Source: a virus
DNA length: 64,000 nt
IMG/VR virus record: IMGVR_UViG_3300032223_002658
Location: 1-64,000 of that record
Reading direction: 5' to 3' (one strand)
In this document: piece by piece, positions 19,347-54,842 of the stretch
Layout of the letters: each line of letters opens with the position of its first letter
Numbering within the stretch: position 1 is the first letter of the stretch
Notes under the pieces: generated by a model
What the model was told of the DNA's origin: nothing
Database searches by the model: none
The model's input: the letters and a program-made list of their open reading frames with translations, nothing else
Made by a program: the position numbers and the translations under genes

Positions 19347-19613
19347 ATGTCAATAGAAAAATTACTAAAAACACTGGCCGTTTCAATAAATCCAAGACAA
19401 GAAATGCGTGATTCAGAAGATATGCCAGTTAAAATGTGTTGGTGTTGCCAAATGCCAGCAAGCGCAACCGATCTTTTCTACTATGCTGATAATCAAAATA
19501 AATGTTATTTTGCTTTATCTGGAAAGCCAGTTCAAAAGAGATGCGAAGAATGTCATTATCTTGGAGATGATTGGAAGAAAAAAGGTCCAACTTACGTCAA
19601 TAAACAGATGTAA
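19347..19613 (+). CDS. Small Cys-rich protein with MSIEK N-terminal tag
   Basis: An 88-aa protein beginning MSIEKLLKTLAVSI, the same N-terminal tag found at 30358, 30753 and 54774. The body has two Cys pairs (CWCC near residue 32, CEEC near 70) plus further Cys/His, which suggests a zinc-binding fold. It is the last gene of the tail operon and sits 4 nt from the convergent gene at 19618. I do not know the function; the tag suggests a shared destination with the other tagged proteins. Confidence 0.6.
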   Translation: MSIEKLLKTLAVSINPRQEMRDSEDMPVKMCWCCQMPASATDLFYYADNQNKCYFALSGKPVQKRCEECHYLGDDWKKKGPTYVNKQM

Positions 19614-19617
19614 AATT

Positions 19618-20097
19618 TTAAGGTTGGCAACCAACAAACATTTTAATTATAATTTGCTTGCAGATTGATTCAACAACATAAGCCTCAGATACAGTTAAAC
19701 GGTGACCAGCCCAAAAACGCTGGTCACCTTTCTTTGAGCTAATTTCAAATGCAAAGCCATCATCTAATTTATACATTTTCATTATAACATTGCCAGATTT
19801 ATTTTGATGGAAGAAACCTTTTCCTTTTCCGCTTTCATCAGCAGCACCTAAGAACGCTTTTCTTCCAGAAAGAACGCAGGCTATTTCTGCAATTTCTTCT
19901 GTATCAAGCTTGACTGTTTCAGAATCTTCCTTCCAAGAAAAGCGATTATTGCCATCAGAATCTTTTGATGCTTCTTGCTTTGCTACAGTAAGAAAAAAGT
20001 TACATGTTTTTGCGTTCCACTCCCAAGATGAAGCACACCCCTTGGTGTGATCTTTCATATTTGGTTTATAAATTTTGTATGCTGGATTGTATGACAT
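19618..20097 (-). CDS. Possible ssDNA/RNA-binding (PC4/Whirly-like) protein
   Basis: A 159-aa protein with repeated amphipathic strands (SGNVIMKMYKLDDGFAFEIS) and a C-terminal helix (SEAYVVESICKQIIIK), a pattern like PC4/Whirly/PUR-type nucleic-acid binders, where a sheet is followed by a helix. This is a weak call from pattern only. Its ATG shares TAATG with the end of the upstream gene, so the two are made together. Its 3' coding part contains the plus-strand terminator at 19701. Confidence 0.35.
   Translation of the reverse strand: MSYNPAYKIYKPNMKDHTKGCASSWEWNAKTCNFFLTVAKQEASKDSDGNNRFSWKEDSETVKLDTEEIAEIACVLSGRKAFLGAADESGKGKGFFHQNKSGNVIMKMYKLDDGFAFEISSKKGDQRFWAGHRLTVSEAYVVESICKQIIIKMFVGCQP
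19701..19735 (+). terminator. Plus-strand terminator embedded in a convergent gene
   Basis: GGTGACCAGC (19701-19710) pairs perfectly with GCTGGTCACC (19719-19728) around an 8-nt loop, and TTTCTTT follows. It lies about 90 nt after the end of the plus-strand tail operon, inside the coding region of the opposing gene 19618-20097. Confidence 0.8.
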
Positions 20098-20924
20098 TAG
20101 AAAATAACCTCACCTTTAATTTGCTCTGGAATAGATTGACCACCATTCTCAGTTCCTCGACTGAAACCATTTAGTATGTTTATTACTTCGTGTGATTGCT
20201 TATATGTAAGAGTATGCATACTCTCTGTTTGAATTCCACAGAACTTGATTAGCTTTGATTGATCAATTCCCATTCGATTACACATTGTATTAATTACAAT
20301 TTTTGCACTATCTGAAATCGGTCTATTTTCATCAATAACCATTGGATCAAGATCTTCTTTTGCTACTCCCTGATTTACTTCCTCAAGAGCGTAAACTCTA
20401 ACAAGACCAAGAGCCTTTCTCAATGCACGAGCCTCAGCTTTTGTTGATGCTGTAGCAACAGAAGCGTTGCAGTAAGGAAATGGTGTATTATCTGGATTTA
20501 CATCAAAAACATCAGACACATATTCATCTCTTGCAGAAATTACACCATGTCGCTTGAATTGAATGCTGCATCTAACTGTTGCTGTTCTATCTGACATTGT
20601 TGGAGACTTCAAAACATCGATGTCAACGGATACAATTCTTCCAATTAGTTTCTTAAAAATTCTTCGAAGACCATCGCATGTAGGCATTCCATCCTTGCAT
20701 TCCTTGTCAGTCAGTTGTGAAATGACATAATCAGACCATTCTGGATCTGTCTCATCTATTTTCTTTGATCCATCTGCTGATGTTATTTGAATAGCAGGAG
20801 ATACGCTTTCTGCTTCTGCTATCATTTGCTCAAGTGTTTCAATGTCAAGATCGGAAATGAGAACTGCGTCTTTACCAAGATCTACCAAACGTTTAACTAG
20901 TGATTTCTTGCTTTTGCGTGGCAT
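20097..20924 (-). CDS. Possible recombination/annealing-associated protein
   Basis: A 275-aa protein with a basic N-terminus (MPRKSKKSLVKR), a beta-rich centre and a motif ATASTKAEARALRKALGL near residue 165 that resembles the helix following the sheet in phage Rad52/Erf-type annealing proteins. The C-terminal domain is helical (SAKIVINTMCNRMG). It is coupled to the next gene by TAATG and overlaps the upstream gene by 32 nt. The annealing call is tentative, based on that motif and on the neighbouring ssDNA-binding-like gene. Confidence 0.35.
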   Translation of the reverse strand: MPRKSKKSLVKRLVDLGKDAVLISDLDIETLEQMIAEAESVSPAIQITSADGSKKIDETDPEWSDYVISQLTDKECKDGMPTCDGLRRIFKKLIGRIVSVDIDVLKSPTMSDRTATVRCSIQFKRHGVISARDEYVSDVFDVNPDNTPFPYCNASVATASTKAEARALRKALGLVRVYALEEVNQGVAKEDLDPMVIDENRPISDSAKIVINTMCNRMGIDQSKLIKFCGIQTESMHTLTYKQSHEVINILNGFSRGTENGGQSIPEQIKGEVIF

Positions 20925-21438
20925 ATTTAATTAGTCCTATGTAATCCTCTGCTGATTGTGGCAACGCTATAACTGATTTTCCATAATTTTCTGATACGGT
21001 TGAATCAAAAAGTGTCTTAAAAAACTGGTTTGGAAAAACAATCAAATCACACATGCTAAAGTTATATTGAACATTTTGCACCTTTTTTATGCATGACTGT
21101 ATATCTCTAGCAATAAAAATAATTGGACCGGCAAAATTTATTTGTTGTCTCACATCGTCTAGTGCATCATATGAGAATACAAATGTTGGCCCAGTAACTG
21201 AAGATAAATATTGGCTAGTGAACAAAGATGTGGATGGAACAGAAACGACTTTGTTATCACCTCTTGTAAAAAGATTAAATGATACTTGTTTATTTTTGTT
21301 TTTAGCTATAGCCATATTTATTTCATAGTAAGGCTGACTAACACAATTATCAAATAAAAAATTTACATTGCCCCTCTTATATAGAGATCCTACAAAAAAC
21401 GTGTCTAGTATAGCGTTATCATTCATTTCTGCAGTCAT
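20893..21438 (-). CDS. Hypothetical protein of the sugar cluster, partly glycosyltransferase-like
   Basis: A 181-aa protein. I start it at the ATG at 21438 because TAGGAG lies 7 nt upstream; a further ATG at 21459 would overlap the glycosyltransferase. The C-terminal half (CDLIVFPNQFFKTLFD) looks like a strand-helix of a GT-B Rossmann domain, but the protein is too short for a complete glycosyltransferase. It follows the glycosyltransferase genes without a gap. Confidence 0.4.
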   Translation of the reverse strand: MTAEMNDNAILDTFFVGSLYKRGNVNFLFDNCVSQPYYEINMAIAKNKNKQVSFNLFTRGDNKVVSVPSTSLFTSQYLSSVTGPTFVFSYDALDDVRQQINFAGPIIFIARDIQSCIKKVQNVQYNFSMCDLIVFPNQFFKTLFDSTVSENYGKSVIALPQSAEDYIGLIKYATQKQEITS

Positions 21439-21439
21439 A

Positions 21440-22117
21440 TTATCTCCTAAGCATCGCATGTTCTCTTGCGATATCGTTGTTGTGGGCAGTCAAAGTTTTA
21501 TTTTGCCCATGGTTGTAGTATTTGAAAAGAGGGGCTGGGATTCTCATGCACATAAAATTTGCAGCAGATATCCTAAGCCAATAATCGTAGTCTTCAATGA
21601 GTTTTATTGATTCGTTAAAAAGACCTATTTTGTTTACGACAGATCTCTTTATAAATGAATTAGTTGACACAATGCATTGACGCTTCAAAAGACGCTCATC
21701 AAAATCAGGTTTTGAGTTATACATTGTTTTATTTGAAAATACTTCAATATAATCAGAATAGACAAGACCAACCTCAGGAGCTATATCAAGATACTTGATG
21801 CTTATTTCGGCCTTTTGAACATGGTATTCGTCATCGGCATCAAGAAATCCAATATATTCACCTGAAGATTCAAGGATTCCAGCATTTCTAGCACTCGCAG
21901 TACCACCATTTTTCTTTTTAATAAGTCTGATATTTGAATCACCAAATTTATAAATTAATGATTGTGCCAAAAGTAATGAATTGTCTTTGCTGCCATCATC
22001 AACAATGATTATTTCAGTCTCGCTTTTATCGATGGTTTGTGCGACAGCACTAGAAACTGATCTTTCAAGAAAATGACCTTGATTGTAATTTGGTATTATT
22101 ATTGAGCATTTAATCAT
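21440..22117 (-). CDS. Family 2 glycosyltransferase (GT-A fold)
   Basis: A 225-aa enzyme expected to transfer a sugar from a nucleotide-sugar donor. It has the classic GT2 order: SIIIPNYNQGHFLERSV at residues 5-21, IIVDDGSKD near 37, NGGTASARNAG near 68 and the metal-binding DADDEY near 93, followed by IEDYDYWLR near 170. It contains the complete catalytic core and is short at the C-terminus with no membrane helix, so it is probably soluble. Its ATG overlaps the upstream stop as ATGA, in a row of genes with such overlaps. Confidence 0.9.
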   Translation of the reverse strand: MIKCSIIIPNYNQGHFLERSVSSAVAQTIDKSETEIIIVDDGSKDNSLLLAQSLIYKFGDSNIRLIKKKNGGTASARNAGILESSGEYIGFLDADDEYHVQKAEISIKYLDIAPEVGLVYSDYIEVFSNKTMYNSKPDFDERLLKRQCIVSTNSFIKRSVVNKIGLFNESIKLIEDYDYWLRISAANFMCMRIPAPLFKYYNHGQNKTLTAHNNDIAREHAMLRR

Positions 22118-22644
22118 ACGAATGCAATTCTTTTTTGATCTGTATTGAACAACTCTTCCATCATTATATCCTCATAATCTGATATTTTAAATCCACCGTA
22201 TGGTGAAAATCCATCAATATCAGACCTGTGAATAATTTTATCGCTATTTATCTCAAATGACTTCATGATTTGTTCAACTTTATCTCCATTTGTATCACCA
22301 ATCCAAATAAAGTGTTTGTGATCTGAATCTTTGTACTGCATTTTTGGATTCTTCAAATACTCATTCCAAATTAAAAATATTGATGATTCTACACGCTCAA
22401 CAGTAGAAATCATCTTTATGCTTTCGTAGAAAGATGGAACAACTTTTATGAATCTTACGTTTTTATGTTCAGAGTATACTGATTCTTTACATTCAAGCTC
22501 ATCTCCAGATAAACCCATGTCAACAAACATATATTCATGATTGTCATTTATCTCTATGTTTTTTTTGCACTCAGCATTAAAAGTACCAAAATTCATTGGT
22601 CCATCTCTATGCTCTTTAAGCAAAATGCAAACAACACATTTCAT
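22114..22644 (-). CDS. Hypothetical protein of the glycosyltransferase operon
   Basis: A 176-aa protein with no family I recognise. It begins MKCVVCILLKEHRDG and has mixed alpha/beta character with many acidic residues. Both ends overlap neighbours by ATGA, so it is translated in step with the sugar genes. It could be a divergent GT-A domain, but no DxD-type motif in a proper setting is evident (only GDTNGD near residue 115). Confidence 0.45.
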   Translation of the reverse strand: MKCVVCILLKEHRDGPMNFGTFNAECKKNIEINDNHEYMFVDMGLSGDELECKESVYSEHKNVRFIKVVPSFYESIKMISTVERVESSIFLIWNEYLKNPKMQYKDSDHKHFIWIGDTNGDKVEQIMKSFEINSDKIIHRSDIDGFSPYGGFKISDYEDIMMEELFNTDQKRIAFV

Positions 22645-23084
22645 TGTTTAACTGCCTCCATGTTCACGACCCATTGATATGGGCCATACCATGTTTTGGT
22701 AACAGAGAAGCCAGATGACTCAAGAGCGTCTTTCAATGATCCATGATCAAGGTATACATTGTATCCGCTGAATATATTGTTGAAAGTTGGCGTATCCATT
22801 ACTCCATAGGCAAGAGCATTGGATGCACCGACAACATCAACTATTTTTATTTTTAGAACACAGCCGCTATCAGAGAACTGCGCCCATGAATCTATGGTTT
22901 CTTTGACAGGAGCCTTGGTTTGCTCAAGTGCGCCAGGATGAGAAATTATTTCAGTTATCTTTTTTCCATTGATGCTTCTGATTACATAATCATCAACAAG
23001 CTGATCTGTTTTTACCCCGTTTCGTCTTTCTAAATTTATATATCCATCAAGATATGCTTCGCCATGATTAACATTTATTTTCAT
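22641..23084 (-). CDS. Degenerate SAM methyltransferase-like protein
   Basis: A 147-aa protein whose opening (MKINVNHGEAYLDGYINLE) aligns with the LHLGCG...PGYINID start of class I methyltransferases often found beside glycosyltransferases, but the glycine-rich SAM loop is missing. The later part (YNVYLDHGSLKDALESSGF, then KTWYG) keeps the typical H...L...L...GF pattern. It may have lost SAM binding and serve as a partner or structural protein. Coupled by ATGA on both sides. Confidence 0.5.
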   Translation of the reverse strand: MKINVNHGEAYLDGYINLERRNGVKTDQLVDDYVIRSINGKKITEIISHPGALEQTKAPVKETIDSWAQFSDSGCVLKIKIVDVVGASNALAYGVMDTPTFNNIFSGYNVYLDHGSLKDALESSGFSVTKTWYGPYQWVVNMEAVKQ

Positions 23085-24109
23085 AGTATTCCTTCAATTC
23101 TTTTGTTATATGCTTGTTCAAATATAGAATTCCAGCTATTTGCAAAATCCTCTATATTGTAGTTTTCAACTATTCTTTGTCTGCAGTTTGAACCAATATT
23201 ATGGGCGTATTCTTTATCATTGCATATACGCACTATTTGTTTAGCTAGATGCTCAAGATCATTTGAACATATTTCTGGATTATTAATTATTGATGGCACT
23301 TCTTGATTAGCGGTTGACACACATGGCGCACCACAAGACATCGCCTCCATTAAAGACATTGGAACTGGAGACAGCCTAGAAGTATTAAGATAACACGAAC
23401 AGTTATTTATTGCCTGTATTAAATGGGCTTCATTTGAAATAGGCTCGCTAACTCCCGGATTATCACCAATCAATGCAAATTTAATTGTTGGATCTATACT
23501 TTCAACAATAGATTTGACTTTAGTCCATTCTGTATATCCACAAAACTGATCTCTTTGAGCAAGAGCATTAACAATGTATAATACATATTTTGTCTTTCCG
23601 CTTTCAAATGCTCCAGTCCATCCCACAAAGTCATTTGTTCTTATTCCATGCTTAACAACTGTTGCATTTTCAATGCCCCATGATTTTTTGTTATGCTCTG
23701 TTATAAAAACGTTTATATCAGCTTTAAATGAAAGCATTGCTTCCATTGTTCTTTGATCCCAGTTTTTTAACTGTGGTTCAATGTGCTCCAAATGAACTAT
23801 TGGAAGTCTCAAGGCTTTGGCAATTTCTGTGGCAAATTGTATCTGACCAAATCTTTCTTGAGACAGTATGAAATCAATATCATATTCCGTATCAGATATT
23901 GCATTATACTCATATGTTCTTTGTGGAAGTGGCTTAAAACGCCGATCCCACTGTTTTGTTCCAGCCCCCCTGTTTATTAGAAAGAATTCGTGACTAGTTG
24001 CCAAGGCCAAATTTGTTTGGTATGCCTCATGCGTTGCAAAAGTAAGTATCTTATACTTTTTCTTTGGCGTTCTGTTAATTTTATTTGCTATTGTGATTAA
24101 TGGATTCAT
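23081..24109 (-). CDS. GT-B glycosyltransferase (family 4/1-like)
   Basis: A 342-aa protein with the two-domain GT-B pattern: an N-terminal Rossmann half, then VVKHGI near residue 150 and the C-terminal donor half with SPVPMSLMEAMSCGAPCVST near residues 243-262, the place of the E-x7-E nucleotide-sugar motif. It acts on an unknown acceptor. It lies in the middle of the ATGA-coupled cluster, so it probably adds one sugar in a chain built by its neighbours. Confidence 0.85.
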   Translation of the reverse strand: MNPLITIANKINRTPKKKYKILTFATHEAYQTNLALATSHEFFLINRGAGTKQWDRRFKPLPQRTYEYNAISDTEYDIDFILSQERFGQIQFATEIAKALRLPIVHLEHIEPQLKNWDQRTMEAMLSFKADINVFITEHNKKSWGIENATVVKHGIRTNDFVGWTGAFESGKTKYVLYIVNALAQRDQFCGYTEWTKVKSIVESIDPTIKFALIGDNPGVSEPISNEAHLIQAINNCSCYLNTSRLSPVPMSLMEAMSCGAPCVSTANQEVPSIINNPEICSNDLEHLAKQIVRICNDKEYAHNIGSNCRQRIVENYNIEDFANSWNSIFEQAYNKRIEGIL

Positions 24110-25218
24110 TTTGATGACAAAGCCTCTACTAGTTTTGGACCAACAGCCTCATAGGAAAACTTGTTAACCATCTTTGTATAGTTTTCATTTGCGGTGTTTT
24201 TATATTCACCATTTGCTGCCCTACGCATTTTTTCCATCATTTCCCACAAAGATCCTTCCATCCACCATTCTTTATGGGAATAAAGTCCAGGGACAATTGC
24301 ATTTTTGGCCATTGCAAATACCGGTTTCTTGATCATAGATTTGACTGTTGGCTCATAATCCAAGTCAAACATCTTCGATATGCCATTCCAGTGAGTTGCT
24401 ATAACCGGCTTCTTGAATGCCGCTGCATCAAATGCTGGTATGCACTCGCCTTCTCCTCGTGAAGCAGTAACATAACAATCGAAGTTTTGATGCATCCCCA
24501 AGATCTCTCTTTCAGATAAAACGTCTGTCATTACGACTATCTTTGGATAATCTTTTTCAGATCTCTTGATTTCCGACTTTACAGATGATATCGCTTCTTT
24601 TATGAAATGCAAAGACTCTTCTGGATTTTTACCATCAACGTAAGTCTTGATTATAAGAGAAACGTTGTCTCTAGAAGAAAATTCAGACAAAAATGCTGTT
24701 ACGGTACTTGCAATATTCTTTCTGTATGAGTAGTCTGATATCGTATAAAATTTATATGTGTCTTTTATTTCATCTGGAATTGGAGGAGCTTCATATGATT
24801 GGTCGTACTTTGTGAAATCGCTTGGGCGTGTAACCTCTCTAAGAATCGATTTTACACCAGATTCTTGAGCTGCAGCAATTTGATCTTGCGTAGTCATCCA
24901 AACTTCATCCATCAAATTACATGAATACTGCCAACCAGAAGATCTGAACGAGCTGCTCTCCCAATAAAATAAACCAATATTTTTAACTCCAGCTATTCTG
25001 ACAAAACTGTTAGGAATTGTTTGTTGTATCACAACATCCACATTATCAAGATCGCATCTGACTTGAATGTCTTTGTCTATGACAACAGGTCTTGAATTAA
25101 GCGTGAACCATGTTGGAACAACATCAACTCCATATTTTGACATGCACTTTATGAAATCCCTTGCTGAATTTCCATATCCAGTGCCATCACGATAAACAGA
25201 TAAATATGCTACTTTCAT
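24106..25218 (-). CDS. GT-B glycosyltransferase (family 4-like)
   Basis: A 370-aa GT-B enzyme. It opens MKVAYLSVYRDGTGYGNSARDF, the acceptor-domain start with the GNSAR loop, and carries SRGEGECIPAFDAAAFKKPVIAT near residues 247-269, the family 4 donor-binding motif. No membrane segment is visible. It overlaps both neighbours by ATGA. The substrate is unknown. Confidence 0.88.
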   Translation of the reverse strand: MKVAYLSVYRDGTGYGNSARDFIKCMSKYGVDVVPTWFTLNSRPVVIDKDIQVRCDLDNVDVVIQQTIPNSFVRIAGVKNIGLFYWESSSFRSSGWQYSCNLMDEVWMTTQDQIAAAQESGVKSILREVTRPSDFTKYDQSYEAPPIPDEIKDTYKFYTISDYSYRKNIASTVTAFLSEFSSRDNVSLIIKTYVDGKNPEESLHFIKEAISSVKSEIKRSEKDYPKIVVMTDVLSEREILGMHQNFDCYVTASRGEGECIPAFDAAAFKKPVIATHWNGISKMFDLDYEPTVKSMIKKPVFAMAKNAIVPGLYSHKEWWMEGSLWEMMEKMRRAANGEYKNTANENYTKMVNKFSYEAVGPKLVEALSSK

Positions 25219-26876
25219 ATTACCACCGTATTTCTGCTTTTTGTTTGCTGATGACCTTCAGTATTAACCATAAACCTGTGTTGCTCAAACATGTTTCTAT
25301 CATGTATCTCCTTTTGCATGATTTGATTGAGCTTATTTATATCTATGTCGTGATTTGACAAAGCACCATTTTTGTTCATTACATCGGCAATGTTTCCCAT
25401 CTGGAAAGATGTTTTTTGCATTGTTCCAGGCGTGAAATATTGAGAAGCAATTTTACATATTGTAGCCGCATCCATACAATCATCAGCTTGCAAATTGACA
25501 TATTGAGACATCTTTGGTGGCGCAAACCATCTGAATGGATTTTTTGTTTCAATTGAGTCAAATATCCTTGACCATTTTTCAGCAAATCCATCGCTTGAAT
25601 GAAAGTGTTCTGCTGTTTCTCTAGCCAATGAAGACAAGAACTCCTTCTTTTCCTTTGTTTCTTTTAGATATGATGTCATCATTTCAGACAGGTGACTATC
25701 GTCTGGTATTGCTCTTATTTGACTTGTCTCTCTTGTTGACTCCTGTCTCCATCCAGATATGCGGGTTTGTCCATATCCACCACCAAGTCTGGCAAGTTCA
25801 TATGGTGCGGCATAGTCAGTTGATATAACTGGAATGCCGCAAGCTTTCGCTTCTATAATTGGAATTTCAAGAGCGCCAGCAACGCTGTGCTGAATATAAA
25901 GATCTGCAATGTTGTATATTTTTGCAAGCTCTTCTCTTGTTGAGCCATTCGATGTATTTGCCATAGCGCAAGCTTTTTGCCCACACTTTTCACAATATTT
26001 TCTATCACCAGCGTAGAATCCTGGAGTTGATTTTTTGCAAACTTGGCAATAATATGTCACTATTACTCTTGATCCAACGCCATACCGTATTATTTCTTTT
26101 GGTATGTCAAATCCACAATCAGGATTTCCAGTGTGCAAATATAGATATGTCTTGTCAGCTATTTCATTGAGTCCCTGTTTGTATAGGGAATCTATGGTGT
26201 CTGAAAAAGCTTTTATTAGCCCAGGAAAAAGTTTTCTTGGCTGGTTACGCATTACAGTCATTATTATGTTTGCGTCTTCCGATATTCCATACTCAGCACG
26301 TATAGTTTTCTTGTCCATTACTTTGAATGTCTCAAGATCGACACCAGGCATTGTATTTAAAGAGCAAACATTAAGTTTTCCATTGCCATATTTGGACAAT
26401 ACGCTCAAGCCCCAGTCTGTATATGAGGTAAGAAGATCTACTGTTGAGAATGTTGATAGCCATTCATCTCTTGGTGGCTCAGAGTCAACACACACAGACC
26501 AAATATACGTGTAATAAGGTCTTGATGGAGACTTGGTTATAAATTCATCGTGCCAATAATCTCTGTATGAGAAAACTATATCGGGTTTGAATTCGTTTAC
26601 AGCAGCCTCAAATCGCAATGATCCAAACTGAGCTGTTTGATATTCTTGTTGAAATCTCTGCATTTCTGCAGAGCCTTGAGTAGGAACAACTGGAAAAACC
26701 TTCCACGGAAGTGTTTTTACTCTTGGATCATCGTCAGAAATATAAGACGCAAGCTCAGCGACCTCATACTTTCCAGATTTATGAAGTCTAGAAAGCAGAT
26801 CGTATGCCATAACAGAAAAGCCTGTGTTTAACAGGCTGAATTCACTCACTAACAGTATTCTTTTTTTATTGCTCAC
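25215..26876 (-). CDS. GT-B glycosyltransferase with an inserted zinc ribbon
   Basis: A 553-aa glycosyltransferase. The N-terminal half opens KKRILLVSEFSLLNTGFSVMA; the donor half has ADLYIQHSVAGALEIPIIEAK and ACGIPVIST. Between them is an insertion with two Cys pairs, CQVC and CEKC (about 23 residues apart), that looks like a zinc ribbon and is unusual for this family. I start it at GTG 26876, which overlaps the end of the 57-aa gene (GTGAGCAATAA) in keeping with the coupled cluster; an upstream TTG at 26894 is possible. It is the first glycosyltransferase of the row. Confidence 0.85.
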   Translation of the reverse strand: MSNKKRILLVSEFSLLNTGFSVMAYDLLSRLHKSGKYEVAELASYISDDDPRVKTLPWKVFPVVPTQGSAEMQRFQQEYQTAQFGSLRFEAAVNEFKPDIVFSYRDYWHDEFITKSPSRPYYTYIWSVCVDSEPPRDEWLSTFSTVDLLTSYTDWGLSVLSKYGNGKLNVCSLNTMPGVDLETFKVMDKKTIRAEYGISEDANIIMTVMRNQPRKLFPGLIKAFSDTIDSLYKQGLNEIADKTYLYLHTGNPDCGFDIPKEIIRYGVGSRVIVTYYCQVCKKSTPGFYAGDRKYCEKCGQKACAMANTSNGSTREELAKIYNIADLYIQHSVAGALEIPIIEAKACGIPVISTDYAAPYELARLGGGYGQTRISGWRQESTRETSQIRAIPDDSHLSEMMTSYLKETKEKKEFLSSLARETAEHFHSSDGFAEKWSRIFDSIETKNPFRWFAPPKMSQYVNLQADDCMDAATICKIASQYFTPGTMQKTSFQMGNIADVMNKNGALSNHDIDINKLNQIMQKEIHDRNMFEQHRFMVNTEGHQQTKSRNTVVI

Positions 26877-27473: not shown

Positions 27474-27521
27474 GTTTTACCTGTGTTATATTCTAGAACG
27501 ATTATTTGTGTTTTTAATCAA

Positions 27522-29691: not shown

Positions 29692-29696
29692 ATTCG

Positions 29697-29705: not shown

Positions 29706-29708
29706 GTG

Positions 29709-29717
29709 GTGTATTAG
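29709..29717 (+). promoter_or_regulatory. GTGTATTAG promoter, leaderless spacing
   Basis: GTGTATTAG followed by TATTG and the ATG at 29723, 5 nt from hexamer to start codon. It is divergent to the ACCTACAAT box, with 9 nt between the two hexamers. Confidence 0.6.
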
Positions 29718-29722
29718 TATTG

Positions 29723-30349
29723 ATGGGTTCTAGCGATCAAGTCATAAAAAAACATTTAAACGCTGTAGCTAAACAGGTTGTTGGTCCTCCAACTAGAACT
29801 AGACCTGATGAACCAAATATGCCATTAGAAACAAGTCCAGGATCGTGGACAGATACAACACCATCATCGTGGCAATTTTCGATTCAAGATCTTTTGGCGG
29901 CTCTTTATAACGGAATAACATCTTTGAGACTGTATATTGAAAGATGGCTTGTTAGTCTCGGAATGTCAAGAAATGTTGCAAAAATAATAACTCTTAATTT
30001 AACACTAAGCGCAGAAACTATATTTCAGTTTGCTTACTGGGTTATAAGACCACAAACAACAAATCTGCCAAGAGAGTTATTTCTTAGTTTGCTGGGGTCA
30101 ATTTTGGATGCAATAAGTCCAACCGGACGTACTGGGATTGATGATGCCGCATGGGATACGTTTTATTATTTTGATCATAGAGGGGTATTTTTCTTTGGCG
30201 ATATTGTGGCAGCTATACAAAGAGGATGGACAATAAATCAAATAATAGAGTGGCTACAATTTTTGATCTCAAAGGGAAACGACTATTACTATAATTGGCC
30301 AGATACTCCAGAGCAAGCTCAAGAAGAAATGGATTTATACAAAGATTAA
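29723..30349 (+). CDS. Hypothetical accessory protein with a hydrophobic central helix
   Basis: A 208-aa protein with an N-terminal amphipathic segment (MGSSDQVIKKHLNAVAKQVV), a Pro/Thr-rich linker, and helices with hydrophobic stretches (residues about 85-105 and 120-135). It ends with an acidic tail. The start follows the promoter by 5 nt. It leads a plus-strand cassette of tagged Cys-rich proteins. I do not recognise its family. Confidence 0.5.
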   Translation: MGSSDQVIKKHLNAVAKQVVGPPTRTRPDEPNMPLETSPGSWTDTTPSSWQFSIQDLLAALYNGITSLRLYIERWLVSLGMSRNVAKIITLNLTLSAETIFQFAYWVIRPQTTNLPRELFLSLLGSILDAISPTGRTGIDDAAWDTFYYFDHRGVFFFGDIVAAIQRGWTINQIIEWLQFLISKGNDYYYNWPDTPEQAQEEMDLYKD

Positions 30350-30357: not shown

Positions 30358-30741
30358 ATGTCAATAGAAAAATCAATAGCAAAGTTTATATCAAAATTAC
30401 AAAATACACCAACTTCTTTGGAAAACACTGGTTCTCAATCTCGTCAGTGTAATAATCCAACAGCTTCTATTAATGAACTAGACAAGATAACGTATCCAAA
30501 CACACCAAGAGGAGCTTGCTGCTCTCTTGGTTTATGTTTTGAAGATACTAGCGCTAAGAGCTGCAGCTGGAGGATTTCGGTACACGGAGCTAGTCAGGGT
30601 TATTGGTTTGAGGGACAGCGTTGCGTTGGAGAATCTATACTTTGTCATAATGCTCTTGAAAATGGTGGAACAATACTGCAGCCAATGACAGAAAAAGAAG
30701 AAAGCGCTTATTTAAGAAATATAGGATGCATAAAATCTTAA
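30358..30741 (+). CDS. Tagged Cys-rich protein with a GACC motif
   Basis: A 127-aa protein with two parts: the MSIEKSIAKFISKL tag at residues 1-14, an Asn/Ser/Thr linker, and a Cys-rich domain beginning RGACCSLGLCFED near residue 51. The spacing GACC...C....C....G.WF.G..C is like the GACC module at 60318. AGGT lies 5 nt before the ATG. The Cys pattern suggests a disulfide-bonded or metal-binding exterior domain. Probably a virion or secreted accessory protein. Confidence 0.6.
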   Translation: MSIEKSIAKFISKLQNTPTSLENTGSQSRQCNNPTASINELDKITYPNTPRGACCSLGLCFEDTSAKSCSWRISVHGASQGYWFEGQRCVGESILCHNALENGGTILQPMTEKEESAYLRNIGCIKS

Positions 30742-30752: not shown

Positions 30753-31427
30753 ATGTCTATAGAACAATCAATAAACAAATTGGTAAAAGCAGTAAATCAA
30801 ACAGTTTTAGACAAAAAAATAACTCCAGAACAATATTTTGATGTAATTGCTTCGCCTTCATGCAAAAAACTTCTTGGTAAAGATGGTGCTCCAATTAAAA
30901 ATCCGCCTATAAATGATATTTGTGATGCGCTAAATGACAATAATACATGGATTAATCCTAAAAAATGTCCAGCATTTAATCCAATTGGACATAAGTGCTC
31001 TCCATCAGAAGTATTTATGTCAGAAGAAAAAATTCCATCAAATGGAAAATTAATAACATCAAAAGATGTTGCCAGGGCATGTGAAAATTATGCAAATGCA
31101 CAAGTGGCCGCAATAGACACAAGAGGCATGAGCCAATCTCAGATACAAGAAATAAAATCTAAAGCAAAATGCTCGTGCTACGACTATTCATTATATAGTC
31201 AGGAAAATGGCAGCGCTTGGCCAAAGGGAATAAAAGAGGCTTTAACAAATCCTGCGCCAAATAGTTTTATACCAGCTATATATCCAGGGCATTTATCTAT
31301 TCAAACATTAGATGCGTATAAAAATAATTGTAGCGCTTCACAAATTCATGATCTATGTATTGAAAATTCAATAGTGGTTAGAGATTGGAATCGCGCTTGT
31401 GGATTAATTGCAGCGCCAGAAAATTAA
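30753..31427 (+). CDS. Tagged Cys-rich hypothetical protein
   Basis: A 224-aa protein starting MSIEQSINKLVKAV, the third copy of the N-terminal tag. I choose the ATG at 30753 (preceded by CAGGT) over one at 30726, which would overlap the previous gene and hide the tag. The rest has about ten Cys spread along its length and a CSCYDY motif. Its stop codon overlaps the stop of the convergent metalloprotease gene. Function unknown. Confidence 0.6.
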   Translation: MSIEQSINKLVKAVNQTVLDKKITPEQYFDVIASPSCKKLLGKDGAPIKNPPINDICDALNDNNTWINPKKCPAFNPIGHKCSPSEVFMSEEKIPSNGKLITSKDVARACENYANAQVAAIDTRGMSQSQIQEIKSKAKCSCYDYSLYSQENGSAWPKGIKEALTNPAPNSFIPAIYPGHLSIQTLDAYKNNCSASQIHDLCIENSIVVRDWNRACGLIAAPEN

Positions 31428-32064: not shown

Positions 32065-32073
32065 ATAATACAC
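32065..32073 (-). promoter_or_regulatory. GTGTATTAT promoter, leaderless spacing
   Basis: On the minus strand GTGTATTAT is followed by AGGAT and the GTG start at 32059, again 5 nt. It is divergent to the tail fibre promoter at 32132. Confidence 0.6.
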
Positions 32074-35351: not shown

Positions 35352-35360
35352 GTGTATTAA
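35352..35360 (+). promoter_or_regulatory. GTGTATTAA promoter
   Basis: GTGTATTAA, 6 nt before the ATG at 35367, with no Shine-Dalgarno between. It starts the next three-gene block. Confidence 0.55.
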
Positions 35361-35366: not shown

Positions 35367-35732
35367 ATGGCAGGATTATTCGATATCTTCAAAAACAAAC
35401 TAAACCTTGCGGTTGCTCAAGGTACGATGGAAGATACACAAAAAAACATCGATAATCAGGAGCCTACAACTCCAGAGGAAGATTTATCAGACGGTATGAG
35501 TGAAGGTGTGAATGATGAAACCAGTTATAGTGGAATAGAACCAGGCGATATGGTTCAAAACACAAATACTGAATGTATGCATCATGGTAGCGAGGGGGTA
35601 GTTTTGAAAGTAGAATCACTACCAAATAACACAGGATACGTCATCCATTATCAAGTAACAAACAGTGGCCCAACTTATTCTCCGGGCGACATTTTAACAA
35701 AAACTGAAGATCAATTAGGTAAAATATCATGA
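35367..35732 (+). CDS. SH3-like virion-associated protein 1
   Basis: A 121-aa protein. The first 50 residues are acidic and probably disordered. Residues about 55-115 (GDMVQNTNTECMHHGSEGVVLKV ... YSPGDILTKTEDQL) form a small barrel of the SH3/KOW type seen in large phage capsid and prohead modules. It is ATGA-coupled to a second, shorter SH3-like gene. A structural or scaffold role is inferred. Confidence 0.55.
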   Translation: MAGLFDIFKNKLNLAVAQGTMEDTQKNIDNQEPTTPEEDLSDGMSEGVNDETSYSGIEPGDMVQNTNTECMHHGSEGVVLKVESLPNNTGYVIHYQVTNSGPTYSPGDILTKTEDQLGKIS

Positions 35733-35983: not shown

Positions 35984-36356
35984 AGATATAGATAAGATTT
36001 TTGCTGATGAACAAGCTATCGCCGTGACACATAACGGAAAGAGTGTTACTTTAAATAAACCACACAGAATTGGAAAAGGCGAGCCTGGATACGGAAAAAA
36101 GAAATTTGCTGTTTATGTAAAGAATGATAGTGGAAACGTTGTGCGTGTAACGTTTGGTGATCCAAACATGGAAATAAAGCGAGACAATCCGCAAAGACGA
36201 AAAAACTACAGATCTCGTCATGGATGCGATAAGCCGGGGCCAAAGTGGAAAGCCAACTATTGGTCTTGCAAAATGTGGGAAGCAAAGAAGTCTGTTACAG
36301 ACTACACAAGCAGCCAGTTATTTGATGTTTTTTTAAAAGCTTTGAATAAAGACTAA
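35973..36356 (+). CDS. Capsid-associated DUF6321-like protein
   Basis: A 127-aa basic protein. The segment KKKFAVYVKNDSGNVVRVTFG, DPNMEIKRDNPQRRKNYRSRHGCD and KWKANYWSCKMW is the conserved domain often fused to prohead core or protease proteins in T4-like phages. It is usually linked with capsid assembly or the virion interior. The start is ATG 35973 or 35976; both follow GAG. Its stop overlaps the stop of the convergent membrane gene. Confidence 0.7.
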   Translation: MMLEDIDKIFADEQAIAVTHNGKSVTLNKPHRIGKGEPGYGKKKFAVYVKNDSGNVVRVTFGDPNMEIKRDNPQRRKNYRSRHGCDKPGPKWKANYWSCKMWEAKKSVTDYTSSQLFDVFLKALNKD

Positions 36357-37150
36357 GCATTATTTTGGTTGTTGTCTGCTGGCTGGTTTTCTTTTAGCCA
36401 TACGCCAAGAGCAATAATCATTGCAGCTATTACACCAGCTGGAACACCAATTGATGCTCCAATTCCAGTTAAATCAAGCGCCCCAGAACCTATGGCAAGA
36501 GCAGCGCCAATTGTTATTATTGATGCAGCGCCAAGACCAACAAGCCATCTCACAAGATTCTCATTTGCGCCATTTGCCATAGCCCATACTCTAATTGCAG
36601 CATTTTGAGAGCCAGCTTTGAGATAAAGTGCAGCTATTGCTATTAGCCCATCTTTTGTTGTATTTTTCAACATTTGTTCAAGCTCATCAATAGTTAGACC
36701 TAAATTATCAGAAAGAGTTTTAAGAACTTTCTTTGTGTCTGGCAAATCAAGAAATTTTGCTCTGCAATCTTCATCAAGTTTACCGATTAAATCTTTGAAA
36801 ATTTCAAGTAAAGCAATTCCTTGATCTTCTGATTTAACGGATTTAATTTTTTGTATATTCTTTGCTAAAATTTCAAGGGCTTTTTTAGCACATAAATCAG
36901 ATGGATCGCTTTTTGCTTTATTGATAAGATATTTAACAAGAACTATTGTTGCTGTTATAATAAGACTTGGTACTAAAGAAAGTAGAATTTGCGGTATCCA
37001 AGAGTAATCGATTGGTACTTGCTCTTCTACATCTGTATTTTGTTGCCAATCGGTTTGTGACACATCTTTTTGTGATATATCCTGCAGTTTTGTTGGCTCA
37101 AGCTTTGCTTGTACAATGTGAATTAAAAGATGTTTTTCAAAATTATTCAT
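36353..37150 (-). CDS. Membrane-active protein 3 of a three-gene operon
   Basis: A 265-aa protein, start at ATG 37150 (the next in-frame ATG upstream would overlap the previous gene). Residues 1-20 (MNNFEKHLLIHIVQAK) resemble the start of the next gene. One hydrophobic helix lies near residues 50-75 and a Gly/Ala/Ile-rich hydrophobic region at residues about 205-250. The centre is helical with acidic residues. No enzyme motif. Such C-terminal glycine-alanine hairpins suggest membrane insertion. Confidence 0.5.
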   Translation of the reverse strand: MNNFEKHLLIHIVQAKLEPTKLQDISQKDVSQTDWQQNTDVEEQVPIDYSWIPQILLSLVPSLIITATIVLVKYLINKAKSDPSDLCAKKALEILAKNIQKIKSVKSEDQGIALLEIFKDLIGKLDEDCRAKFLDLPDTKKVLKTLSDNLGLTIDELEQMLKNTTKDGLIAIAALYLKAGSQNAAIRVWAMANGANENLVRWLVGLGAASIITIGAALAIGSGALDLTGIGASIGVPAGVIAAMIIALGVWLKENQPADNNQNNA

Positions 37151-37154: not shown

Positions 37155-38015
37155 TTAACCAACAGGAATGTATCCATTCTTGGCTAGCCATTGTAAAAGT
37201 TCACCAAGAGATTTAGCGGTTCTTACGGCACCCACTATAGCAGCAACAATTCCACCGATTCCAGTACCAAAACCAACAATTAAAGCCCCAATTGCAAAAA
37301 TTGCTTGTGCAGTATTTAGCAAAGCGTTTAGATCTTCAAAAAATTCTTTTTCTCTGGCTTCTAGTAAAATTGTTGCTGTTATATATATTCCGGCGTACTC
37401 TGCATTGGTAGAATCAAGAGCATTTAATCTTTTGTAAACAGCAACAAGAAGACCAAGACCGTCTGGATCATAAGCAATGTTATCACCTAGCGCTTGACCA
37501 ACCGCTTCAATAAAAGCTTTATCTTGCGCTTGTAATCTATCACCAAGTGCCCTTATTAGCTTTCTTCTAAATTCTGGATCTGATCCATATTCTTTAAGAC
37601 ATGGAAAAAGATCAATTACACTCCCTATTTCTCTTGGTTGAAATAGTGATTCCATAGCAGCAATGGCCGCGGAAATAGATCTTGTCTTCCCTGAATTTTT
37701 TGCTTCTATAAGTGCTTCAGTTGCCTTAACTAATTGTCTTACGAAATCACGACCGCTTTTAGACTCTATTACTTTTCTTATACATTCAATTTCTTTAGCT
37801 GCGCCAGCGCCAAATGCTCTTACAAAAGCAGCAAAAAAACCTAATATTGCCTGCTGATCCTGTGGTTCATTTGCATCATAGTTTAGTTTTGGTTGAACTT
37901 TAGTGTCTTCTTGAACTGGAACTGGAACACCTTCTAAATCTGTCATATGCATTGGTTGTAAAGAAGTTTTTGCTTTAAGTATATGCCGCAATATTATGAT
38001 GTTTTTGTTATTCAT
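37155..38015 (-). CDS. Membrane-active protein 2 of a three-gene operon
   Basis: A 286-aa helical protein starting MNNKNIIILRHILKAK, similar to the start of the protein at 36353. A hydrophobic Gly/Ala/Ile stretch at residues about 235-268 probably spans or inserts into a membrane. It overlaps the preceding gene by ATGA. It may be a distant paralog of its neighbour, based on the same order of elements and the shared N-terminus. Confidence 0.5.
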   Translation of the reverse strand: MNNKNIIILRHILKAKTSLQPMHMTDLEGVPVPVQEDTKVQPKLNYDANEPQDQQAILGFFAAFVRAFGAGAAKEIECIRKVIESKSGRDFVRQLVKATEALIEAKNSGKTRSISAAIAAMESLFQPREIGSVIDLFPCLKEYGSDPEFRRKLIRALGDRLQAQDKAFIEAVGQALGDNIAYDPDGLGLLVAVYKRLNALDSTNAEYAGIYITATILLEAREKEFFEDLNALLNTAQAIFAIGALIVGFGTGIGGIVAAIVGAVRTAKSLGELLQWLAKNGYIPVG

Positions 38016-38968
38016 TGTGGAACCAATTGAACGTTTGGGAAAAGTTTTTGAAGAGCTTGTATGACAGCGGCCAATGTTCCTGCTGCTGCTTCACCAGCTA
38101 AGCCTATAGCTGTTATTGCTGAAGTCAATGCGGATATTGCCGCACTTATTGCTGTGGCTGCGCCTGCAGCTACACCGCCAACGACAGCTATGGCAGCAAT
38201 CGCTATTGCAATTGCTCCACTTAAAGCAACCATTTGTGTGTCTGACATTCCTGAAAGAGCATCAACAGACTGATCTTTTATATATTCAACAATTATTTTT
38301 GCTGCAGCAGATGGATCTGTATATAATACATTTTTTGCCATTTCAATCAGAATGTCACTGAATGATAAAGACTGACTTGATTCCATGAGTGCGTCTATTG
38401 AATTTAAAATTCCTTCACTAACAAAGGTGTTAGGAAGATTAAAGGCATTTCCAAATTGAGCGACAAATAAACCGGCCATCAATGCCATAGCCGCTTTTTT
38501 AATACAGGCCATATGTGACTCAGGAATTTGAAAAGGATATTTTTGAACTACTTTCTTTTTCAATTCAAGATTATAAGTAATATCTTTTATGCTATTTATT
38601 CCTGTGGAAGTATCGGTTGGCGTTACTGGTTTAAACCAAGAAATTATTTCTTTAAAAAAATCTTTTACTTTTTCAAGAATGGTTATATCTAGAGTATTTA
38701 GGCATGGAATTTTTGTTTTTAACCATTTAAGAATAACGGTTAATGTAGTGCCTCCCACAACAGTTATACCAATATCAAGTATAATTTGAGAGAACCATTC
38801 AGCGGGATCTTTAATTTTATCTAGAGTTCTTTCAACAATCCCAGGCTTATTTTCAGATATTGATGGATTTGTTTGTAAATAATTCAATTCAGCATCTTTT
38901 AATGCTATAGCATTCATTGTTTTTATGAATACTCTATCCTGATATCTTACTTCATGCATATACCGCAT
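38012..38968 (-). CDS. Membrane-active protein 1 of a three-gene operon
   Basis: A 318-aa protein with a hydrophobic helix near residues 65-85, another near 165-185, and a very Ala/Gly/Ile-rich C-terminal region at residues about 240-305. There are no catalytic motifs. The ATG at 38968 lies 5 nt after a TATTAT box. Together with the next two genes it forms a membrane-directed operon placed between the two halves of the polymerase. Confidence 0.55.
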   Translation of the reverse strand: MRYMHEVRYQDRVFIKTMNAIALKDAELNYLQTNPSISENKPGIVERTLDKIKDPAEWFSQIILDIGITVVGGTTLTVILKWLKTKIPCLNTLDITILEKVKDFFKEIISWFKPVTPTDTSTGINSIKDITYNLELKKKVVQKYPFQIPESHMACIKKAAMALMAGLFVAQFGNAFNLPNTFVSEGILNSIDALMESSQSLSFSDILIEMAKNVLYTDPSAAAKIIVEYIKDQSVDALSGMSDTQMVALSGAIAIAIAAIAVVGGVAAGAATAISAAISALTSAITAIGLAGEAAAGTLAAVIQALQKLFPNVQLVPQ

Positions 38969-38973: not shown

Positions 38974-38982
38974 ATAATACAC
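38974..38982 (-). promoter_or_regulatory. GTGTATTAT promoter, leaderless spacing
   Basis: On the minus strand GTGTATTAT, AAATT, ATG at 38968: 5 nt between hexamer and start codon. It overlaps the stop codon of the gene at 38982. Confidence 0.65.
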
Positions 38983-42370: not shown

Positions 42371-42371
42371 T

Positions 42372-49381: not shown

Positions 49382-49382
49382 G

Positions 49383-50732: not shown

Positions 50733-50738
50733 CAATCA

Positions 50739-50747
50739 TGTATACAC
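50739..50747 (-). promoter_or_regulatory. GTGTATACA promoter
   Basis: On the minus strand GTGTATACA, 6 nt before the ATG at 50732. The promoter overlaps the dUTPase stop codon. Confidence 0.5.
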
Positions 50748-53112: not shown

Positions 53113-53122
53113 ATTAGTATTA

Positions 53123-53131
53123 ATTGTAGGT
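53123..53131 (-). promoter_or_regulatory. ACCTACAAT promoter before the RNR gene
   Basis: On the minus strand ACCTACAAT ends 10 nt before the ATG at 53112. A TTAATA hexamer sits 5 nt before the ATG, so the exact -10 box is uncertain. The ACCTACAAT sequence is shared with two other minus-strand promoters. Confidence 0.4.
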
Positions 53132-53138
53132 TTTGCAA

Positions 53139-54134: not shown

Positions 54135-54139
54135 GTCTT

Positions 54140-54148
54140 ATTGTAGGT
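54140..54148 (-). promoter_or_regulatory. ACCTACAAT promoter of the glycosyltransferase
   Basis: On the minus strand ACCTACAAT, AAGAC, ATG at 54134: 5 nt between hexamer and start codon. Divergent to the GTGTATAGT box at 54147. Confidence 0.6.
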
Positions 54149-54155
54149 GTATAGT
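54147..54155 (+). promoter_or_regulatory. GTGTATAGT promoter of the plus-strand cassette
   Basis: GTGTATAGT, 14 nt before the ATG at 54170. No Shine-Dalgarno is evident, so the mRNA would have a leader of only about 7 nt. It overlaps the opposing ACCTACAAT box by 2 nt. Confidence 0.5.
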
Positions 54156-54169
54156 AATTTGATAAACCT

Positions 54170-54772
54170 ATGTCTGAAGAACCTAAATACATTTTTACTA
54201 CTCCTGAGGCTGCTGAAAACATGGCAGAGAAGTTAGGTTGCTCTGGACATCAAGAGTTCTACAATATAGATGGAAAACAATCCGGACTAAAAGCAAATAC
54301 TACTTATTATCTTCCATGTTCATCTCGTGATGTGCTGCACAATAGATTAGACGACTATAAAGAAAAGATGGCTAAGTCAGAAGAGCTTGATTTGGATCAG
54401 ATCGACTTTGCTGAATCAGAAGTGCAAGTTTCATTTGACGCTTTCTTGCAATCATATTTTGCTAATGGGTCTGATTCTGTTAGTGACTCTGTTAGAAAGA
54501 CACTGAGTAAAAAAGCTGCTGAGTATAATAAAAACACAAAACACAAAATAAAAACAGCTACTTTGATAACTGTATTCAGACGAGGAGTCGGAGCTTACAA
54601 AACAAACCCAACAAGTGTAAGACCAAATGTTCGCGGTCCTGAGCAGTGGGGTTATGGAAGAGTTAACGGGTTTTTGCACGCTTTAGGAACTGGATCATTC
54701 AAAAGAAAACCTTTTGACACAGATCTTCTTCCATCTAGTCACAGACTCTCATCAAAAAACAAAAAGAAATAA
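54170..54772 (+). CDS. DUF5824-like virion-associated protein
   Basis: A 200-aa protein with a C-terminal domain of the DUF5824 type: LITVFRRGVGAYKTNPTS near residue 126 and EQWGYGRVNGFLHALGTG near residue 157, then DTDLLP. This domain appears in many large phages, often in structural or internal proteins. The N-terminal half is acidic. It starts a small plus-strand cassette. Confidence 0.7.
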   Translation: MSEEPKYIFTTPEAAENMAEKLGCSGHQEFYNIDGKQSGLKANTTYYLPCSSRDVLHNRLDDYKEKMAKSEELDLDQIDFAESEVQVSFDAFLQSYFANGSDSVSDSVRKTLSKKAAEYNKNTKHKIKTATLITVFRRGVGAYKTNPTSVRPNVRGPEQWGYGRVNGFLHALGTGSFKRKPFDTDLLPSSHRLSSKNKKK

Positions 54773-54773
54773 A

Positions 54774-54842
54774 ATGTCAATAGAAAAATTAATAGAGGCA
54801 ATGGTATCTAAATTTGACTATCTAATAGATAGAGTTGTTTAA
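54774..54842 (+). CDS. 22-aa peptide consisting only of the MSIEK tag
   Basis: ATG at 54774, stop TAA at 54840. The peptide starts MSIEKLIEAMVSKF and ends IDRVV, so it is almost entirely the N-terminal tag of the proteins at 19347, 30358 and 30753, and its first 16 nt are identical to those of 19347 and 30358. Hydrophobic residues at positions 3, 7, 10, 11 and 14 are kept. It may be a real short peptide or a remnant of a tagged gene that lost its body. Confidence 0.5.
   Translation: MSIEKLIEAMVSKFDYLIDRVV

Follow-up and report, generated by a model that had tools for sequence, protein, structure and literature searches.

A short N-terminal sequence carried by otherwise different late proteins of a tailed phage may, with about even confidence, be read as a portable docking helix that recruits these proteins to the virion assembly site, most likely inside the prohead. 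The proposal, drawn from sequence, concerns a window of 64 kb (the whole stretch of DNA that was analysed, 64,000 nucleotides), the source of which is a tailed-phage record of 87,471 bases, here called G000. The reading that appears to fit best is a packaging signal similar to the T4 capsid-targeting sequence (CTS), because the tag is conserved across the clade, the promoter-like motif of the terminase-to-tail genes accompanies tagged genes and a GH24 lysozyme is among the tagged proteins. By analogy, the tag is probably a clade-wide docking signal that works like the CTSs of T4 and P1 DarB, and a T4-type protease probably does not cleave it off; for the tagged proteins we infer both a virion location and a docking partner. 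An earlier note on this DNA had suggested a targeting signal, and of that reading one kind of N-terminal signal on different proteins, conserved in relatives, has stood. T4-type processing of the tag has no support.

The tag within the window

Genes were called with a simple custom codon model, giving 121 called genes in G000. The four ORFs that had been said to begin MSIE(K/Q) do so, at 19347, 30358, 30753 and 54774 (tags MSIEKLLKTLAVSI, MSIEKSIAKFISKL, MSIEQSINKLVKAV and MSIEKLIEAMVSKF, respectively), and the hydrophobic positions 3, 7, 10, 11 and 14 are kept in all four, position 11 being Ala in one. The 16-nt identity claimed for three of them is likewise real, as ATGTCAATAGAAAAAT occurs exactly three times in the 87,471-base record and the reversed control pattern zero times; at the DNA level, once up to 3 mismatches are allowed, the pattern does not stand out (7 matches, 3.5 being expected, with 5 of 100 shuffles reaching 7). 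At the protein level, residues 2-4 are common to 4 of the 121 called G000 proteins, which 0 of 2,000 column shuffles reached, and the pair 30358/30753 reaches a score of 30 in an 18-residue comparison, where shuffles average 0.03 pairs at 30 or above.

A cross-genome profile, built only from tags of the relatives G008 and G009 and then applied to G000, gave a score of at least 7 to 11 of the 121 genes against 1.5 in shuffles, and 0 of 200 shuffles reached 11. The genes at 19347, 30358 and 30753 attain this score, and those at 54774, 54882 and 36353 fall below it. Among the weaker relatives that had been suggested, 29723, 57864 (start 58841) and 60318 (start 60665) thus reach 7 and 54882 does not, and 35367 and 38012 are extra matches that had not been listed. 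Three further genes at or above 7 (26866, 32148 and 74438) are excluded from the tagged count, and two others, 58825 (start 60309) and 37155, were unfairly scored because the gene caller placed their starts too far inside the reading frame; in-frame starts further upstream yield MSNQISKLERILRDKL and MNNKNIIILRHILKAK, respectively. Exact MSIE(K/Q) is a local flavour, and the general feature is a looser predicted helix, [I/L]-x-K-[L/H]-[hydrophobic]-x-x-[V/I/L/A]. Judged by eye, a mitochondrial-type or signal-peptide reading was set aside for the acidic residues and the lack of a long hydrophobic core, as was a double-glycine leader, there being no GG end.

The tagged genes of the window differ widely behind this start. 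The 88-aa product of 19347..19613 (+; MSIEKLLKTLAVSIN) has a body with 6 Cys, and its orthologue G001_33162 begins MSLEKLLKALASSIN. At 29723..30349 (+), a 208-aa protein opens with VIKKHLNAVAKQVV and then a Pro-containing linker, and its homologues keep a tag in 5 other records. The protein of 30358..30741 (+; 127 aa), with 8 Cys and a GACC motif in its body, has no body homologue at E 1e-4 in the 13 other gene-called records. The gene at 30753..31427 (+) encodes 224 aa with 10 Cys; other starts within its body cluster are MSIERSIQKLL (G001), MSKLERLIKKHITL (G008) and MNKFEQILRKNIQ (G009), and in the G001 orthologue, the body of which is about 30% identical, 8 of 14 tag residues are conserved. 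A small conserved domain lies behind MAGLFDIFKNKLNLAVAQ in the 121-aa product of 35367..35732 (+); among its homologues, found in 4 records, the tags at the start are of the KIKSALRKLQIA or KVKRALRALQIA type. Hydrophobic segments mark three proteins encoded on the minus strand: the weakly tagged 36353..37150 (265 aa, MNNFEKHLLIHIVQAKL, several segments), whose homologues begin with LFNYIAKVAAK-type tags; the weakly tagged 37155..38015 (286 aa with its start moved upstream, segments C-terminal); and 38012..38968 (315-318 aa, RVFIKTMNAIAL), whose tag resembles FIKTLNQIAL of G008_96521 and for which no body homologue was found at E 1e-4 in the gene-called records. The ORF at 54774..54842 (+; MSIEKLIEAMVSKFDYLIDRVV) has 22 residues only and is a tag without a body, the G008 tagged gene 115089 lying at the equivalent place; at 54882..55277 (+), MINYISKLNIAANNYF begins a 131-aa protein whose homologue G009_82562 begins MKNYIAKLNIAA. 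Cys-rich bodies recur in the minus-strand genes at 57864..58841 (325 aa, KYTDKLKKLRFVLGVKLSP from a TTG start, 10 Cys), 58825..60309 (494 aa) and 60318..60665 (115 aa, MSKTLKNLILALEQAVSP), the GACC Cys-rich module of the last also forming a C-terminal part of larger tagged proteins in G005, G008 and G009.

Promoter context and tagged bodies

A promoter-like motif, GTGTATWW, lies 10-150 nt upstream of 26 of 64 tagged genes, 30 of 92 terminase-to-tail genes (a class assigned by position, which in G000 holds tail genes only) and 37 of 403 other genes. As the motif was first noticed upstream of a gene array in G009, its association with tagged genes in that record involves some circularity; in G000 alone it precedes 4 of 13 tagged genes against 7 of 95 genes (p=0.026). 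Copies stand before 29723 (29709..29716, +), before 35367 (35352..35359, +), before the 38012 gene (38975..38982, -) and between the tag-only ORF and gene 54882 (54856..54863, +). Further copies precede the tape-measure gene 4585 (4560..4567, +) and the tail-tube-like gene 1276 (1247..1254, +), and the latter ties tagged genes to virion genes.

A GH24 lysozyme family is tagged in the relatives G008, G009, G010 and G044; PF00959 (Phage_lysozyme) matches in 4 of 12 records, above the cut-off in 1, and Pfam gave no GH24 match in the window itself. The tagged lysozyme aligns with T4 lysozyme (E=1.3e-6 over about 40 residues) and with the PHROG family 'internal virion lysozyme motif' (E=4.8e-5). 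Within PHROG its strongest match is to an endolysin family (4.3e-7), and there are matches to tail-lysozyme families as well, so a role in lysis or in the tail is possible. The AlphaFold2 model of this lysozyme is poor (mean pLDDT 33.6), as is that of a 363-aa tagged protein (41.7), with which Foldseek returned nothing at E<=0.001. A SleB-type hydrolase (Hydrolase_2) was considered for the latter protein (338-363 aa) and rejected, PF07486 matching in 0 of 12 records and searches of PDB and NCBIfam likewise giving it no support. The 363-aa protein occupies the place where other records have the lysozyme.

It is possible, if unlikely, that the tag instead anchors proteins to the virion exterior or tail, at the surface of the capsid or at a tail or fibre hub, by analogy with the short conserved peptides through which a second receptor-binding protein is attached to a branching protein. 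Cys-rich modules suit an oxidising place, proteins with at least 3% Cys are enriched among tagged genes in 3 of 4 records, and such bodies would fit the exterior or the periplasm as well as they fit head cargo. The promoter motif common to tagged and virion genes and the tail-lysozyme matches would also suit an external location, and PMC6872550 describes short N-terminal docking peptides for phages. However, the proteins with hydrophobic segments (about 260-370 aa) would be odd as surface fibres, and no fibre, tail spike or depolymerase family matched among the approximately 32 of 95 tagged proteins scanned, each against at least one library.

Rather improbable is a localisation signal that would act in the infected cell and not in the virion, placing proteins of lysis, superinfection exclusion or takeover at the host membrane or on a phage assembly platform. 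The late-gene-type promoter would fit lysis functions also, as would the endolysin family that best matches the tagged lysozyme. However, 11 of the 13 window tags carry at least one acidic residue within their first 18 positions, and the specific I-x-K-L-like pattern seen across genomes goes beyond mere amphipathicity.

Conservation of the tag in relatives

Relatives were found in a viral collection with the tail-tube-like protein as query, which is 71-92% identical between G000 and the relatives used; two single-protein searches of the same collection revealed no close relatives of the window's own tagged proteins. The bacterial and archaeal genome collection yielded no confirmed relative. 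Among cultured phages, terminase identity is 22-25% in the 20 matches listed out of 39, and neither protein 300-1244 nor the tagged protein G008_119422 found a match. In G001, a phage major capsid protein is encoded downstream of terminase and portal, and the head genes of relatives include one for a protein of 640-683 aa that precedes the capsid gene.

In these relatives the tag is retained on different bodies, as the earlier note had proposed to check: with G000 included, 95 proteins with such an N-terminal helix, a list partly picked by eye from gene starts and with 13 starts shifted upstream by hand, fall into 9 records and 32 body clusters. Tagged genes number 13-22 in each of four larger records, two relatives of the set, G005 and G008, being closely related and hence not independent. 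Body-cluster, composition, Cys and promoter counts are based on the list of 95 or its four-record subset. Pro makes up 11.7% of residues 19-30 of tagged proteins against 2.8%. Five neighbouring G009 genes begin MSLE(K/N)-x-I-(Q/N)-(K/R)-L over bodies of three clusters, and in the G009 array 8 gene pairs without direct body homology score at least 36, against 0 in 30 shuffles. By the start-anchored pair test, neither G001 nor G008 has an excess and G005 has a single weak pair, and a profile from the window's four tags alone works on G009 and fails on G008 and G005. Four distant relatives gave no clear tag excess, nor any body homologue for 50 tagged queries. These distant controls are not fully flat, with 10 against 5.0 at score 6 in G018 and 2 against 0.35 at score 10 in G027, counts that are partly circular as the seeds came from the same genomes (the G008/G009 profile is the cross-genome version), and with 9 start-similar pairs against 2.3 in G034. 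Unseeded EM motif discovery was over-fitted and uninformative.

A shared start could also be a by-product of DNA, either as recent copies of gene starts or as an A-rich translation-initiation stretch, and have no function in the protein, but this is very improbable. The exact 16-nt identity in three window genes would be expected of recent copying, part of the G009 array is a repeated terminator-promoter-leader-tag block, with the terminator and promoter upstream carried along in two copies, and the window's own four tags carry no purifying signal (pN > pS in 5 of 6 pairs). However, tag codons compared between different genes of relatives differ mainly at silent sites, with pN < pS in 17 of 17 pairs (pairs that are not independent), as do the tags of the five-gene group in G009, and homologues with different DNA retain the helix pattern. 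Least probable is that all tagged genes are paralogues whose bodies have diverged beyond recognition, the tag being the best-kept part of an ancient family; some array bodies are indeed related (G009_7094/7632/7927) and the GACC module links several tagged proteins, but the 32 body clusters include a GH24 lysozyme, the large hydrophobic proteins and a small conserved domain.

A model for recruitment by the tag

A docking helix that serves virion assembly can be cast as the following model. A helix about 15 residues long, in many cases with a Pro-rich linker after it, would bind a surface of scaffold, capsid or portal; whatever body it carries would be packaged along with it and would later leave the particle together with the DNA. 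The set of late proteins recruited in this way would change fast, and all would go to one assembly site. Lysozyme and hydrophobic proteins may assist passage of the DNA through the cell envelope, whereas small Cys-rich proteins may act in or against the host. At repeated tag blocks, bodies would be swapped by recombination and the address retained. As the looser tags in the list of 95 were gathered by eye, a single docking site for all of them stays a proposal.

A more tentative extension, which we consider possible and no better than that, is a plug-in cargo system, in which one uncleaved helix would address at least 13 proteins and terminator-promoter-leader-tag blocks would be the recombination joints for body swaps. 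New bodies (lysozymes, pore-like proteins, Cys-rich effectors) could then be placed behind a constant address, and a changing payload would be delivered with the DNA by a common N-terminal code. Repeated tag blocks would, if so used, help to explain the quick exchange of cargo genes. Outside a few model phages, virion-borne proteins are mostly unknown, since injected proteins evolve fast and resemble no known protein; with an address label that can be read, hypothetical proteins could be recast as predicted cargo. Such a label would also make directly testable whether an uncleaved helix suffices for loading proteins of any kind into a phage head, which, if true, would provide a natural protein-delivery tool.

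Comparison with known targeting systems

No equivalent shared-tag system was found among the matches listed in the open-licence literature, and the closest parallels are partial. The T4 prohead protease has an LxE-like cleavage consensus, and a separate late promoter serves each T-even internal-protein gene. The internal proteins of T-even phages are reported to vary greatly, conservation being confined to the CTS (PMC3012670), and the T4 CTS is described as a propeptide of 10-20 residues that is removed by the prohead protease (PMC5694885). As with the CTS of the T4 internal proteins and Alt, a short N-terminal sequence is here common to several different phage proteins with diverse bodies. 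However, a T4-like cleaved CTS is not supported: an LxE-like motif at residues 6-30 is rarer in tagged representatives (5 of 32) than in other proteins (128 of 393). The letters of the tag are other than those of T4. The Pfam prohead protease families S77 (T4 gp21-like) and S78 each match in 0 of 6 records, although the head genes are absent from G000 and these models could overlook a diverged protease. The tagged genes per record, at 13 to 22 in the four larger records, are a further difference from T4.

In the giant phage SPN3US, several head proteins are proposed to be addressed by the N-terminus, which resembles the present reading, but the propeptides listed for it mostly run to about 80-160 residues and are cleaved, in a genome of 240 kb (PMC5694885). 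Receptor-binding proteins of K1-5, SP6, G7C and Klebsiella phages are described as carrying conserved short N-terminal docking peptides for one adaptor (PMC6872550), which likewise join a short peptide to otherwise different proteins; those proteins are fibres and depolymerases, whereas the bodies here are small and Cys-rich, hydrophobic or lysozyme-like. P1 DarB also has an N-terminal capsid-targeting sequence, its signal being longer than 9 residues and its first 30 residues sufficing to load a reporter into heads, and the account of the Dar proteins reports that BLAST gave no consensus among their N-termini (PMC9024508), whereas here one kind of tag is common to many proteins. If the plug-in reading is true, this phage group would possess an N-terminal code that is larger and more uniform than that of T4 or P1.

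Results

The MSIE(K/Q) start that the earlier note had claimed for four genes (19347, 30358, 30753 and 54774) was borne out, as were the 16 nt identical in three of them, of which the record holds no further exact copies. The sharing lies beyond chance as protein (0/2,000 column shuffles reach it); similarity to the 16 nt as DNA, with three mismatches allowed, does not. Among these four tags, nonsynonymous differences exceed synonymous ones (pN > pS) in 5/6 pairs, and only the pattern is kept, not the letters. Most tags in the window share acidic residues and not E at position 4, and their hydrophobic moment is 0.49 vs 0.37 for other gene starts (p=0.002), a comparison to be read with the same caution as the looser tag, the set having been partly assembled by eye. 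The 22-residue ORF at 54774-54842 is a bare tag with no body and may be either the remnant of a gene or a genuine short peptide; it lies immediately 3' of gene 54170 and shortly 5' of the next GTGTATWW motif, and its position is occupied in the relative G008 by a full tagged gene (115089). Gene 31424-32059 (-), which has a tag-like N-terminus (ARFIKHVKTVARNHG) and its own GTGTATWW motif, was left out of the tagged count; its counterpart in the sister record G001 has a HEYSH motif and by eye appears zinc-peptidase-like.

Other tagged genes in relatives were found in G001, in G009 and in a scan of the viral collection. The G001 orthologue of 30753 begins MSIERSIQKLL on a body ~30% identical, and that of 19347 begins MSLEKLLKALASSIN. 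Five consecutive G009 genes (6381, 6741, 7094, 7632 and 7927) begin MSLE(K/N)-x-I-(Q/N)-(K/R)-L on bodies of three clusters, one of which comprises 7094, 7632 and 7927. Back-translated MS[I/L/M/F]EK-x-I-x-K matched 21 stretches, of which 12 carry an MSLEK tag with a leader of this clade's kind, including all seven stretches with at least two matches; the other nine are unrelated (starts within larger genes, short frames, and one 393-aa gene in two contigs). A looser tag, [I/L]-x-K-[L/H]-[hydrophobic], often followed by a Pro-rich stretch, begins many further genes of the clade. The curated list holds 95 proteins from nine records including the present one (G000), in 32 body clusters defined by BLASTP at E 1e-4: 13 in G000, 14 in G005, 15 in G008, 22 in G009 and the remainder in smaller records.

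A profile of the G008 and G009 tags found 11/121 G000 genes at a score of at least 7 vs 1.5 in shuffles (0/200 reach 11), eight of the 11 being on the curated list; it was weaker on G001 (3 genes vs 0.8, with 10/200 shuffles reaching 3). The profile built from the window's four tags succeeds on G009 and fails on G008 and G005. Start-anchored pair scores lie above chance in G000 (one pair), G004, G007 and G009, with no excess in G001 or G008 and a single weak pair in G005. A clear tag excess is absent from G014, G018, G027 and G034, four distant relatives covered end to end; in each of them the four-tag profile gave a count that at least 49/200 shuffles reach. Individual counts there were not all flat: with the full seed set, G018 gave 10 vs 5.0 at score 6 and G027 2 vs 0.35 at score 10; G034 had 9 start-similar pairs vs 2.3. 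None of 50 tagged queries (54774 having no body) has a body homologue in these four at E 1e-4. Because of these shuffle, profile, pair and distant-control results, we judge the strict MS(I/L)E tag firm, and the looser tag, its set partly assembled by eye, well supported in G000 and G009. In the relatives, pN < pS in 17/17 tag pairs of different genes, pairs which are not independent; mainly silent differences of this kind argue for a peptide function.

Several kinds of body carry the tag. It begins a GH24 lysozyme in G008, G009, G010 and G044, and the G009 protein matches T4 lysozyme at E=1.3e-6 over ~40 residues. The tagged lysozyme ranks first with an endolysin family among PHROGs (4.3e-7), then with an internal virion lysozyme motif (4.8e-5) and tail-lysozyme families; Pfam PF00959 was matched in 4/12 records, above cut-off in one. 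At the lysozyme's place, G002, G004, G005 and G007 have a tagged protein of 338-363 aa, whose look suggested a SleB-type hydrolase, an identity that failed its test. The lysozyme stands beside the array at G008 42520, G009 8459, G010 7288 and 10001 of the further stretch L124, and the 338-363 aa protein at G002 3746, G004 21187, G005 73442 and G007 1120. The two were never seen together in one record in the stretches examined, which suggests functional replacement of one another. Also tagged are hydrophobic-segment proteins of ~260-370 aa (36353, 37155, 38012 and others), a small conserved domain (35367), and Cys-rich proteins of small to medium size, several of which contain a GACC module. 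Proteins with at least 3% Cys are enriched among the tagged ones in G000, G005 and G009; in G008 the difference is not significant.

GTGTATWW stands 12-70 nt 5' of a gene start in 14/20 cases in G000, 24/30 in G008, 28/36 in G009 and 21/28 in G005, against a chance expectation of 0.8-1.5 (0.8 in G000). Window sites, many of them ahead of virion genes, lie at 1247, 4560, 10702, 17804, 29709, 32132, 35352 and 54856 (+) and at 32073, 38982, 49143 and 62087 (-). It precedes tail-tube-like, tape-measure, other tail and head, and tagged genes, an own copy within 10-150 nt being found for 26/64 tagged, 30/92 terminase-to-tail and 37/403 other genes (tagged vs other, p=2.5e-9 in the pooled table and 0.026 in G000 alone). 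The motif thus behaves like a promoter of this phage clade, possibly a late one. Across G009 5902-8459 it occurs in 5/6 intervals, with a near-identical terminator hairpin directly 5' of it in 3/6. A 119-nt repeat running from hairpin into tag is 96% identical ahead of 7094 and 7632, and the hairpin-promoter part recurs ahead of the lysozyme gene 8459, whose tag is different; only part of the array therefore has the full terminator-promoter-tag block. The window has none.

The window is part of an 87,471-base virus record with a tape-measure gene (4585-10101), tail genes and, judged by eye, DNA-metabolism-like and sugar-transfer-like genes; terminase, portal and major capsid protein are present in G001, the nearest sister. 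The tail-tube-like protein (1276-2427) led to 43 loci in the viral collection, 3 at 82-91% identity, 7 at 71-74% and 33 at 31-41%. Cultured phages yielded no close relative: there were 39 terminase matches, and the 20 of them that were listed have 22-25% identity. By eye, a DnaE-type DNA polymerase seems to be divided, with its start and its middle portion in separate genes ~10 kb apart, 27522-29057 (-) and 39489-41375 (-), an exonuclease-like gene lies at 29050-29691, and a sugar-transferase-like block (20097-26810, -) adjoins the tail genes. Just past the window, L004:671-1834 (record 64170-65333) matches the beta-glucosyl-HMC-alpha-glucosyltransferase PHROG (E=1.7e-38), hinting at glucosylated DNA.

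Discussion

The simplest account of these data would be one N-terminal address common to many late proteins. From sequence, genome layout and promoter sharing, we think that this address leads to the virion, and most likely into the prohead, since lysozyme and hydrophobic proteins are in the set and the promoter motif is common to virion genes; the addressed proteins would be released as DNA enters. The main rival is that the tagged proteins sit outside the head, because their bodies include Cys-rich ones and the tagged lysozyme has tail-lysozyme matches. The tag may instead serve a lysis or membrane role. Structure predictions were uninformative, probably owing to shallow alignments (4 sequences each). 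For loading into the virion, T4 and P1 offer tested precedents of N-terminal signals, and such signals are as such already known. No report of such a tag system was found among the papers listed in searches of the open-licence literature. What would be new, if this account is correct, is that one uncleaved-looking helix is shared by 13-22 proteins in each larger record and, in one relative, its repetition in terminator-promoter-tag blocks.
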